From NCBI RefSeq assembly GCF_023706045.1, contig NZ_BQYL01000001.1, positions 2,214,001-2,278,000 of the forward strand: 64,000 nucleotides of DNA, given 5' to 3'. Both the position numbers and the translations under genes were made by a program. Below, one piece after another: positions 20,398-23,967 of this stretch. The number at the start of each line of letters is the position of its first letter. The first letter of the stretch is position 1. The notes under the pieces were generated by a model that made no database searches, was not told where the DNA came from, and saw only the letters and a list, made by a program, of their open reading frames with translations. The stretch is from Kangiella sp. TOML190. Lineage in GTDB: Bacteria > Pseudomonadota > Gammaproteobacteria > Enterobacterales > Kangiellaceae.

Positions 20398-20418
20398 AAA
20401 AAAACCGCCCAAGGCGGT
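20398..20418 (-). terminator. Terminator-like hairpin directly abutting the VanZ-like start codon
   Basis: On the minus strand ACCGCC-TTG-GGCGGT is followed by TTTTTTT and then immediately by the ATG of the VanZ-like gene. It would end the upstream DUF1059 transcript. It also puts the only SD-like sequence of the next gene in a stem. Confidence 0.75.
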
Positions 20419-20490
20419 GGAACGTAGAATAATTAACGGGATTTTAGCAATTTGTAACCAGCGAGGCTAGCAGCTAGTTTGTGTTTAGGA

Positions 20491-20739
20491 TTAATCTTCA
20501 GCAAGCGCCTCAAAAGCTTGTTTACGCCCTTCTTTCCACTTTTCCATTGCTCCCGGCTCTTGCATTAACTGTTGGATTTTATGCATTGCCGCCAAATGAG
20601 CTTCATCATTTTGTTGAAACATCTGCATTCCATGCTGTTTACTCAACTCAACCATCTGCTCAAAAGTCTCAGCCCGAAAATCCAAATCACAGGCACCGCC
20701 TAATTGTTTACAGGTCATGGCTTTCATCTTTGCACCCAT
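20491..20739 (-). CDS. DUF1059 family small protein
   Basis: An 82-residue soluble protein. MTCKQLGGACDLDFRAE with paired cysteines and the following helix-rich QHGMQMF segment match DUF1059 proteins, which have no known function. A duplicated-looking start (Met1, Met5, Met8) leaves the exact initiation codon uncertain. It lies downstream of the lipoxygenase gene on the same strand with a gap of about 225 bases, so it could be independent of that unit. Confidence 0.75.
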   Translation of the reverse strand: MGAKMKAMTCKQLGGACDLDFRAETFEQMVELSKQHGMQMFQQNDEAHLAAMHKIQQLMQEPGAMEKWKEGRKQAFEALAED

Positions 20740-20965
20740 TTTTTATTACTGAAATATCTAGTTTACAATCTTATCAATTACCAGCAATTAAATTAAACTA
20801 AATTAACTCTAATAGCTTAATATCTCACCTTTATACTAACATTGGTGCTCCTTGAGTATTGATATTATTTTAACCCTCTTTTCAACAAAGTTGCCGACCA
20901 ATTACCGCTATTCGAATATGATAATCGGTCGGTTTTAAAGCAAAGTTCTAAAAAATAGCCTCCGG

Positions 20966-22498
20966 TTAAGTGCTCACGCTACTAGTTAAAACTTCAGGAT
21001 TAAAAGTTTCAAGTGGCAAAGAGCGCTGAGTATTTAAAGCCTTAATATCCTCTGAAAGTGCTTTTAATCGACCTCTGTAGGTTTTAAATACGTTTATAGC
21101 AGAGTCAGTTTTATCTTTGGATAAAATATGATCAAAATTTTCCATCAAATGAGGCTGACCAAGACCCGTTGTGATAGTTAATGTCACCATTTGAGCGTGA
21201 GATTGAAGATCGCTAATTTCTTGCTCTTCAAGATCGCCTCTCAACTTTGTCCCGATAAATGTCGGATCGAGGGTATACTGAGCAATATTTCCTACTTGAC
21301 CATGATAACCCGTTACAACGAACATAAAGTGCGAGAGAAGTCTGAGAAAACAATCTCGGGTTTCAAGCTTACCAATTTCGAGATTTGGTGCTTGTCTATT
21401 AATTGCACTCCACCATGCCTTGATGTGGGGATCATTCACAAGATCATCACCGTCGTAATATACGCTCATGTACTCATCTGCAAGTTGTTCCATGATTTTA
21501 ACTAACTTTAATCCATCTTCACCATAGGGATAATCTTCTCCAAGTCCATCAACCCCCCTACGAACCATAGATTCTTCAAATGTTTCCAAGGTCGCAGCTT
21601 CTACACCTTTCAAAACGCATCTCAAAACACCCTCATGCTCCATAGCAAAACATCGATGAGCAATACCTCCTTTATTGGATAAGGTAAAGTAAGCTTCTCG
21701 GTTAATATCAGCCGCTCCAAAAATAAAGGGGGTCAACAAATATCTGAGCGGGTGATCTGTGGAAAGCTGCTCTATGGTTACAGTAGTAAGTGTATTGGAC
21801 ACTAAATAGTGGGTGTAACCTAAGTGATCGGTCAATGTAACCGCAGTAAACAACGAGCTTCTGAAACGCCACTTAGCTCCTTCCCAACCCTTATCACCTG
21901 GACGAATCATTTTATCTTGCTTTGGCTCAAAAATACCCACTGGTTTTCTGTCTGCTCCGAAATAAGCGATCGAGCCGTATTTTTCATACTTTTCCCGAAC
22001 CGGATAAGCTTGCATCCAACTGAGGTCAACCATAAACTCAGCATCTTTATTAGAGCTTTTGGCTCGCTCTAATCTATGAGCACCAATCCCCTGAAAAACT
22101 AAATGAGTAAAAGCCTCATCTGACGTTGGATTTTTCCAATCAACAATAATTTTCGGAACTTTATCTTTATACAACTCATAAGCAGACTCAATCGCTTCTT
22201 CACGACTAGGCCAATCATTAATAACATCTTCTACCGGAAGGTTTTCCATACCGTGAGCGAGAGCTTCGGATGCAAATTTCTCTGTCCAGTCTTTATCATG
22301 ATTCTCATCATTTTCTGGAATAAGGATAAATGGTGGCGCAACAGCCAGTTTAGCTTGAGGTTTTGGCTCAAAGTGGGGTCTTTTAGCATCTTCCGCGTTT
22401 CTCTTTACGTGAGTTTCAGCAAGCGCAATAGTCGACTCAGAAAATAACTTTGTATAAAGGTCGAGGCTTGACTCTTTAAGATCGTCTTGAATTGACAT
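20966..22498 (-). CDS. Lipoxygenase-family iron dioxygenase (short bacterial form)
   Basis: A 510-residue protein with lipoxygenase landmarks in order: HxxxxH at His225/His230, HPLRYLL (His249), a GAADINREA segment equivalent to the family's NINxxAR, DYPYGEDGL, YYDGDD and the later GYHGQVGNIAQY with His399 and Asn404. These correspond to the iron ligands of characterised enzymes that add O2 to polyunsaturated fatty acids. The chain lacks an N-terminal PLAT domain and ends in SVST, with Thr where the family has an iron-binding Ile. AAGGAG precedes the ATG at 22498; no signal peptide is visible. It starts 72 bases after a catalase-related gene on the same strand. Fatty-acid substrate and regiospecificity cannot be inferred. 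Confidence 0.88.
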   Translation of the reverse strand: MSIQDDLKESSLDLYTKLFSESTIALAETHVKRNAEDAKRPHFEPKPQAKLAVAPPFILIPENDENHDKDWTEKFASEALAHGMENLPVEDVINDWPSREEAIESAYELYKDKVPKIIVDWKNPTSDEAFTHLVFQGIGAHRLERAKSSNKDAEFMVDLSWMQAYPVREKYEKYGSIAYFGADRKPVGIFEPKQDKMIRPGDKGWEGAKWRFRSSLFTAVTLTDHLGYTHYLVSNTLTTVTIEQLSTDHPLRYLLTPFIFGAADINREAYFTLSNKGGIAHRCFAMEHEGVLRCVLKGVEAATLETFEESMVRRGVDGLGEDYPYGEDGLKLVKIMEQLADEYMSVYYDGDDLVNDPHIKAWWSAINRQAPNLEIGKLETRDCFLRLLSHFMFVVTGYHGQVGNIAQYTLDPTFIGTKLRGDLEEQEISDLQSHAQMVTLTITTGLGQPHLMENFDHILSKDKTDSAINVFKTYRGRLKALSEDIKALNTQRSLPLETFNPEVLTSSVST

Positions 22499-22570
22499 TG
22501 TTTTAATCTCCTTTTTCTTCACTATCAAAATTTTTCAGGGAATTACGAAAATACCTTTTCGGCACTTATA

Positions 22571-23692
22571 TCAAAGTGTATCTGGCTCGAACCGAGTATT
22601 ACCGTTTCTTGCGTGGCGAACTTTAGCACCGCCTTCGTAAACAGATTTACGCGCTCGATTCATAGAACCCAACGGACGATGTGCTGGCAAGGAATTCCAT
22701 GCTGCAAATGTTAACTTCTCTGCGTAGTCAACATCTTTATTTGAAGATAAGTCTTGTACTGGGATTTCAATAATTGCTACACGCTTCGGCGGCGCTTCAG
22801 ACTCTTTCCATTCAACTGTTGGGTCTTCGATAGGTTGTTTTTTTGCATCGTTTTGAACTTGCACCACAAACTCAAAACGAAATGGCTCATCTTTAATGGT
22901 GTTAACTAGAGCATTGCGCAAAAACCTATCGCCGAGCTCCCCTTCGGGCTTTTTATTTTCAGAACTGGTCAGAGGCCTAGCTGAAAATTTAATCGCTTGA
23001 GAGCCAAGCATGTACGGAGTCTGACTCCAATACTGCACTTCAAGCGGATTCCAGAAAGGCATGGCTATCATTTTTTCCAATATGGCAAGAATTTCTGGCT
23101 GTTTCTTGGCAAAAGCAGCCGCTTCTTTCTCCTTATCGACGCCATCATCATCCTTTACGGTTAGGGCTGAACCAAATCGAGTGAAATCTATGTAACTTGC
23201 AAGGTCTTTGACAAAAAAAGTGGGAAAATTGATCATGACAAAATCTTGCGTTGTTGTTGGCCGAATTAGTTTCTCGCCTTCGACACCAAGCACTTTGATC
23301 GCCATACCCTGAGGCTGCGCAACTGTGTCTGCCTGAGCGATTTGGCTTGAAGCAGAAAATCGGATCAACGCATCATAAACCTTAGTTTCAGAAAATATAC
23401 CCTGCCGCAATTCTTTCGGCAGATCATCGACAACTTTGAGCTTTGCTCGGACTAGCCCGTGAGTTTTCGCATGAGCATCTCGCTGTACGACCTCTCCCTT
23501 ACCGTAACTTCGGCGCATCCTTTCTTCCGTGATTAATCGAATAGACTCGATAAGCGCATCTTCATTCGGTTCCTTAACTTCCATTCCTAACTCCAGTTTA
23601 GTTTGAGAATTACCATTTGATAAGCTGCTGTAAGTAACAAGCGTTAAACTTATCGAAAACATCAGCATTCCATATATATGCGTTTTTAACAT
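22571..23692 (-). CDS. Catalase-related hemoprotein (allene oxide synthase / y4iL-like clade)
   Basis: A 373-residue heme protein of the catalase superfamily, far shorter than true catalases. Visible are the distal His74 in RDAHAKTHG, the segment LIRFSASSQ, distal Asn155 in MINFPTFF, and the proximal R348-x-x-x-Y352 in NRARKSVY. Members of this minimal clade act on fatty-acid hydroperoxides (coral allene oxide synthase, hydroperoxide lyase) or are uncharacterised. I start at ATG 23692, which has AAAGG 8 bases upstream and gives a hydrophobic N-terminus that looks like a signal peptide; a further 47 upstream codons are open but read through the promoter. The lipoxygenase gene follows, so fatty-acid hydroperoxide is the inferred substrate. 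Confidence 0.85.
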   Translation of the reverse strand: MLKTHIYGMLMFSISLTLVTYSSLSNGNSQTKLELGMEVKEPNEDALIESIRLITEERMRRSYGKGEVVQRDAHAKTHGLVRAKLKVVDDLPKELRQGIFSETKVYDALIRFSASSQIAQADTVAQPQGMAIKVLGVEGEKLIRPTTTQDFVMINFPTFFVKDLASYIDFTRFGSALTVKDDDGVDKEKEAAAFAKKQPEILAILEKMIAMPFWNPLEVQYWSQTPYMLGSQAIKFSARPLTSSENKKPEGELGDRFLRNALVNTIKDEPFRFEFVVQVQNDAKKQPIEDPTVEWKESEAPPKRVAIIEIPVQDLSSNKDVDYAEKLTFAAWNSLPAHRPLGSMNRARKSVYEGGAKVRHARNGNTRFEPDTL

Positions 23693-23730
23693 ATTAGATT
23701 TACCTTTAAGAGATGTTACTACCATGTACC

Positions 23731-23740
23731 GAAACGTTTC
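23731..23740. promoter_or_regulatory. Palindromic operator candidate over the cat-LOX transcription start
   Basis: A perfect 10-bp palindrome, GAAACGTTTC, lies at about +1 to +10 of the predicted transcript. With one more flanking base it matches 11 of 12 positions of TGAAACGTTTCA, the ideal symmetrical site for Cra/FruR-like LacI-family regulators. No LacI-family gene is in the window. Confidence 0.5.
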
Positions 23741-23747
23741 AATCAAA

Positions 23748-23776
23748 AGACTAGAGAAACTTAGACAGGATGTCAA
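23748..23776 (-). promoter_or_regulatory. Sigma-70 promoter of the catalase-related/lipoxygenase unit
   Basis: On the minus strand TTGACA (-35, 23771-23776), a 17-base spacer and TAGTCT (-10, 23748-23753) lie about 55 bases upstream of the catalase-related start. The -35 is a perfect consensus and the spacing is ideal, while the -10 is weak. Confidence 0.6.
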
Positions 23777-23891
23777 TAGAGGGTAAATTAGGCTTTGTAT
23801 TACTTGCTTAAAGCTGAGTTGACCGTGAACCAATAAGCGTAATTATCTTTGCTTAGCGAGCTTGGGCTGGCGAGCTACTAACGATATTTGT

Positions 23892-23930
23892 AAAAAGCGG
23901 TGTCAGCTTTAAAAAATTAAAGTGACACCG
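23892..23930 (-). terminator. Rho-independent terminator after htpG
   Basis: On the minus strand CGGTGTCA / TGACACCG plus CTTTAA / TTAAAG make a long imperfect hairpin followed by CTTTTTA. It ends htpG and isolates the catalase-related/lipoxygenase unit from it. Confidence 0.8.
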
Positions 23931-23967
23931 GATTAACTTTTAAAAATAGTCAGTAATGATAATTGGA

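Follow-up and report, generated by a model that had tools for sequence, protein, structure and literature searches.

Within the window, the whole 64,000-nucleotide stretch of DNA analyzed here, the small genome of Kangiella sp. TOML190 carries two adjacent minus-strand genes. One encodes a catalase-related hemoprotein and the other, downstream of it, a lipoxygenase (LOX). The features of the locus are:

22571..23692, minus strand: gene for the catalase-related hemoprotein, RDAH-type, 373 aa (ATG 23692, stop 22571; PF00199, fold model)
23606..23692, minus strand: putative signal peptide of the hemoprotein, residues 1-29 (hydrophobic run after MLKTH; pLDDT low at 1-29)
23471..23482, minus strand: distal heme motif R71-D72-A73-H74 (register with coral allene oxide synthase, AOS; alignment of relatives)
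22637..22651, minus strand: proximal heme motif R348xxxY352 (R in 112/113 and Y in 108/113 relatives)
22499..22570, minus strand: intergenic gap of 72 bp, holding the LOX ribosome-binding site AAGGAG at 22508-22513
20966..22498, minus strand: gene for the divergent LOX, 510 aa (ATG 22498, stop 20966; PF00305; PDB and Foldseek matches)
21809..21826, minus strand: LOX iron ligands His225 and His230 (alignment with 38 LOXs)
21290..21304, minus strand: LOX His399 with Gly403 at +4, the Asn ligand being lost (alignment with 38 LOXs)
20969..20971, minus strand: LOX C-terminal Thr510, where Ile is usual (translation and alignment)
20498-20746, minus strand: small ORF (MGAKMKAMTCKQLGGACDLDF...) between vanZ and the LOX gene (window sequence)
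20413..23967, no strand: segment inserted between htpG and vanZ when compared with sibling species, comprising the hemoprotein gene, the LOX gene and the small ORF (gene order of siblings)

The Pfam matches are far beyond chance (hemoprotein, PF00199, E 9e-11; LOX, PF00305, E 3e-18). Together with the coordinates and ORFs they confirm the two genes, 72 bp apart, that an earlier note on this DNA had described. No terminator-like site was found inside the gap (22499-22570), and promoter-like sites at the locus showed no excess over shuffles; the two genes may be co-transcribed. The small ORF presumably resembles DUF1059. Sequence reading predicts a hydrophobic N-terminus for the hemoprotein and none for the LOX, so the tension over a signal peptide raised in that note stands. 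The same tension appears when the LOX, with no signal peptide seen, is set beside the hemoprotein's nearest relatives, which are part of, or adjoin, di-heme proteins of the c-type, for which export is required.

An AlphaFold model of the hemoprotein, built from 52 relatives, has a pLDDT of 91. True catalases rank below its three best PDB matches, the M. avium protein (3e4y/3e4w) and coral AOS (1u5u). The protein is a minimal catalase relative with a domain of ~340 residues, lacking the additional domains that true catalases carry, and it has the fold, distal His and proximal RxxxY of the superfamily. In a profile search, R71-D-A-H74 aligned with R64-x-T66-H67 of coral AOS, and Asn155 and R348xxxY352 fell in register with coral N137 and Y353. 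The earlier note had called this a minimal catalase-superfamily protein, with which PF00199 and the predicted fold agree, and its reading of His74, Asn155 and R348xxxY352 was correct.

Coral AOS has Thr, and catalases have Val, directly in front of the distal His, and according to what Mashhadi et al. reportedly proposed in 2016 (cited in PMC10813956), Thr-His is the hallmark of catalase-related enzymes acting on fatty-acid hydroperoxides. The window hemoprotein lacks a Thr at this place, having Ala73 instead (motif RDAH), although it retains the distal His, the Asn and the proximal Tyr. At this position 94 of 113 relatives have Ala, six Val and three Thr. We rejected Thr77-His78 as the hallmark, because the catalase/cAOS register makes His74, after Ala73, the distal His.

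In the LOX, the recognizable domain is the C-terminal part; the N-terminal ~125 aa have no known domain and PDB LOX matches extend from residue ~194 onwards. All top Foldseek matches of its model are LOXs, and the model itself is weak (pLDDT 63, below 50 at residues 403-461). Identity to ordinary bacterial LOXs is 20-23%. Identity rises to 30-34% with most of a group found in 6 of 189 genomes of the phylum to which a deltaproteobacterial MAG belongs, and the window LOX and this group make up a clade (support 99; exact place 85) apart from all other LOXs sampled. The fourth side-chain ligand of LOXs is Asn (His or Ser) at H-x3-N, and a C-terminal Ile carboxylate is usual. Alignment with 38 LOXs recovered the three His ligands (His225, His230 and His399) and no Asn ligand at H-x3-N, where Gly403 lies at +4. 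Thus, the three His ligands named in the earlier note hold, and its Asn404 does not, being one residue late and not conserved in relatives. Throughout the subfamily the Asn-ligand position is Gly or Ala; the usual residue at +4 is Gly, and at +5 it is Thr, Val or Ala. Members of this divergent subfamily (L224, L256-L262) share a single inserted residue following the second His ligand. The last residue of the window LOX is Thr510, and among the other LOXs sampled there are also C-termini of Thr, Gly, Val and Met. The window LOX has Ala269 at the position where, as reported by Coffa and Brash, Ala predicts S rather than coral-type R hydroperoxides. No catalase-related neighbor was present at the LOX-subfamily relatives examined, and a single-protein scan of genome contigs with the LOX as query gave no match.

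We surveyed the gene neighbors of the 80 nearest relatives of the hemoprotein. Seven are C-terminal halves of fusions with RoxA-like di-heme proteins, found in Planctomycetes and other genomes, and a RoxA-like gene is adjacent to four more. A cyclooxygenase/animal-haem-peroxidase partner is adjacent in four cases and fused in one (L101). DyP genes neighbor two relatives on the same strand and a further two convergently. Many relatives, mainly from Acinetobacter, have no partner, and a LOX neighbor occurred in none of the 80. In one distant relative, a catalase-like domain that has Phe in place of the distal His is joined to a LodA-type lysine oxidase (L057:1-2923); LodA belongs to an H2O2-producing oxidase family. 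In a tree of the sampled relatives, built without coral, cyanobacterial (Anabaena, Acaryochloris) and NpCat sequences, the window hemoprotein falls in a nine-member clade (SH-aLRT 100) with six RoxA-like fusions and two RoxA-adjacent proteins; its nearest kin in this tree are the RoxA-like fusions and not catalase-LOX fusions.

Among RoxA-like proteins, PA2077 acts as a fatty-acid dioxygenase (PMC4496055). All four RoxA-like proteins tested (L047, L061, L067 and L073) scored far over the cut-off of NF040606. In the reverse search, a catalase-related gene adjoins 15 of the 30 best NF040606 loci among 378 Pseudomonadota genomes; the loci with such a neighbor span five genera, 12 of them coming from two genera of one family. 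One of the two RoxA-adjacent members of the clade is encoded in the TOML190 genome itself. At ~1.41 Mb (L047:6640-9671), a RoxA-like di-heme gene lies beside a paralog 67% identical to the window hemoprotein. This locus is collinear with the natural fusions, but a frameshift around an A9 run splits it into two halves, and the di-heme half has an in-frame TAA within its signal region. The locus could be in decay, slippage could rescue it, or the sequence could contain an error. Genes for an SDR and an ABM-domain protein lie directly upstream of it.

In several sibling species htpG and vanZ are nearly adjacent, and the pair sits between them in TOML190. No relative of the hemoprotein was found in the other genomes of the genus sampled. 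From these two observations on gene content and order, the pair looks acquired. No flanking mobile-element repeats stood out around it, and a RoxA remnant near the window hemoprotein gene was not found. In the same neighborhood of a sibling species, a different, canonical LOX is inserted between vanZ and adk (L066:5950-8118). Because the window hemoprotein nests in an otherwise RoxA-paired clade and a RoxA-like locus exists in the same genome, the LOX looks like the swapped partner. The switch would thus have run from di-heme oxygenase to LOX.

A search for co-occurrence and fusion, proposed in the earlier note, returned the exact unfused pair in this one genome only and, in addition, a catalase-LOX fusion. 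This 980-aa protein (L264:1293-4235), from the phylum of a deltaproteobacterial MAG, has its domains in the order of the window pair, with an R-G-A-H distal motif in the catalase part, while its LOX part keeps the canonical H-x3-N. The hemoprotein part belongs to the same wider family as the window protein and shares 34% identity with it, grouping of the two being disfavored (AU p 0.03, long branch), and its LOX is placed in the canonical set, apart from the window subfamily. As both parts group apart from those of the window, the catalase-LOX pairing probably arose more than once. RoxA-like and LOX genes are also paired (L061, L219/L234), and with catalase-LOX and catalase-RoxA pairs also occurring, each of the three components recurs with each of the other two. 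The Nostoc locus L234:2238-8786 has two RoxA-like genes, a Thr-ending LOX and then an ABM-like protein. At L265:5017-7950, 16 bp separate a LOX gene from a downstream catalase-like gene that is degenerate and matches the hemoprotein family only weakly.

Coral AOS-LOX provides the precedent for a catalase-fold enzyme acting with a LOX (PMC5617202). As in the coral AOS-LOX and HPL-LOX fusions (Plexaura, Capnella), the catalase-fold protein of the window lies upstream of the LOX and has the same His/Asn/Tyr heme residues. In contrast to them, the window genes are unfused, Ala replaces Thr before the distal His, the hemoprotein's nearest kin have other partners and the LOX lacks the Asn ligand. 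The cyanobacterial fusions of Anabaena and Acaryochloris likewise join a bacterial catalase-related protein to a small LOX, whereas the window has two genes (compared by description). Nostoc punctiforme supplies a precedent with separate genes, a 10S-dioxygenase and a catalase-related hydroperoxide lyase (PMC9579011, PMC13049297). That system (Brash, 2014) resembles the window in using separate genes, but its dioxygenase is COX-like and the window partner is a LOX; COX-like neighbors also occur in the RDAH family (L076, L077). RoxA-like/FadCcp di-heme oxygenases (NF040606; RoxA, PA2077/PA2078) partner the closest relatives of the hemoprotein, often as fusions, but not the window protein itself. 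The M. avium 33-kDa catalase-related protein (3e4w/3e4y), with a minimal catalase fold, is the best structural match of the hemoprotein, yet only 18% identical to it in the structural alignment.

On balance we favor a two-step fatty-acid oxidation module, in which the RDAH hemoprotein family serves as companion to varied oxygenases and has here passed from a RoxA-like partner to a LOX. The LOX would add O2 to a polyunsaturated fatty acid, and the hemoprotein would rearrange, cleave or reduce the resulting hydroperoxide, as a lyase, isomerase or peroxygenase type of enzyme. RDAH-type hemoproteins would accompany RoxA-like di-heme, cyclooxygenase-like, DyP-type and LOX proteins, beside or fused to them; the ancestral partner in this lineage would be the RoxA-like oxygenase. 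Homology, pairing, clade membership, partner diversity and insertion site were established directly; we infer the direction of the switch, co-transcription, substrate, product and compartment. The two-gene hydroperoxide pathway of the earlier note is probably right, L264 being a related fusion of the same domain order in another bacterium. Its further proposal, an unfused counterpart of coral AOS-LOX, conflicts with the RoxA-partnered kin, Ala73 and the separation of the LOX from that of the bacterial fusion. Several observations count against the two-step reading: the hemoprotein has Ala73 instead of the Thr associated with activity on fatty-acid hydroperoxides, many members of its family have no partner, and in one distant relative the fusion partner is LodA. 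Further, the LOX lacks its Asn ligand and has a poor fold model, its relatives lack a catalase-related neighbor, the pair with this type of LOX occurs in one genome, and a putative signal peptide is present on the hemoprotein and not on the LOX.

Some of these observations would suit a protective peroxidase or catalase-like scavenger, removing H2O2 or stray hydroperoxides from a neighboring oxygenase with no specific product. Chemically diverse partners (LOX, di-heme, COX-like, DyP, LodA), the many solitary members and Ala in place of Thr point that way. We nevertheless consider a scavenger unlikely, given a minimal ~340-residue domain like those of the M. avium protein and coral AOS rather than a full catalase, and the strong fixation of the family with RoxA-type oxygenases, fusions included. 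It is less probable still that the LOX is catalytically altered or dead and the neighborhood an incidental co-insertion. Gly at the Asn position, the C-terminal Thr, the single genome and the LOX relatives without catalase-related neighbors fit this explanation, but the three His ligands are kept across the subfamily, most of whose C-termini are still Ile, Val or Thr, and the ORF is intact, on the same strand, 72 bp away and with its own ribosome site. A true coral-type AOS with its LOX shares both folds and has 1u5u among the top three structural matches, but is very improbable with Thr-His absent, the hemoprotein grouped with RoxA partners and an Ala269 that, as reported by Coffa and Brash, predicts S where the coral type is R.

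Extending the two-step module, we tentatively propose that the RDAH family may be a general, exchangeable hydroperoxide-processing companion of four or more kinds of oxygenase that are unrelated to one another (RoxA-like di-heme, COX-like, LOX and possibly DyP), the window recording one switch to an Asn-ligand-free LOX. This would make it a widespread and undescribed bacterial oxylipin system, as judged against the open-licence literature, and a description may exist elsewhere. Catalase-like enzymes that act on peroxides of fatty acids have been described in corals and in a few fungi and cyanobacteria. The window pair connects such enzymes to a broad family of bacterial proteins whose active site, Ala-His, is unusual and which shows natural fusions to RoxA-like di-heme proteins and, inside one genome, two different partners. 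It offers a functional hypothesis for many genes annotated "catalase family protein" or "di-heme cytochrome C peroxidase," and the window hemoprotein is a direct test case for the need of the Thr-His signature.

Other RoxA-like loci have different neighbors. The P450 superfamily includes hydroperoxide-metabolizing enzymes, and a P450 gene neighbors two of the 30 best NF040606 loci. At four loci (L160, L161, L165 and L189) a P450 gene replaces the catalase-related gene next to or near the RoxA-like di-heme gene, and an oleate hydratase gene is also near the P450 and RoxA-like genes of L161. On the symbiotic plasmid pNGR234a of S. fredii (L159:281-7792), a partial RoxA-like gene is followed by genes for a catalase-related protein, a hypothetical protein, a RoxA-like protein and a patatin-like phospholipase; this cluster suggests an order of lipid release, then oxidation.
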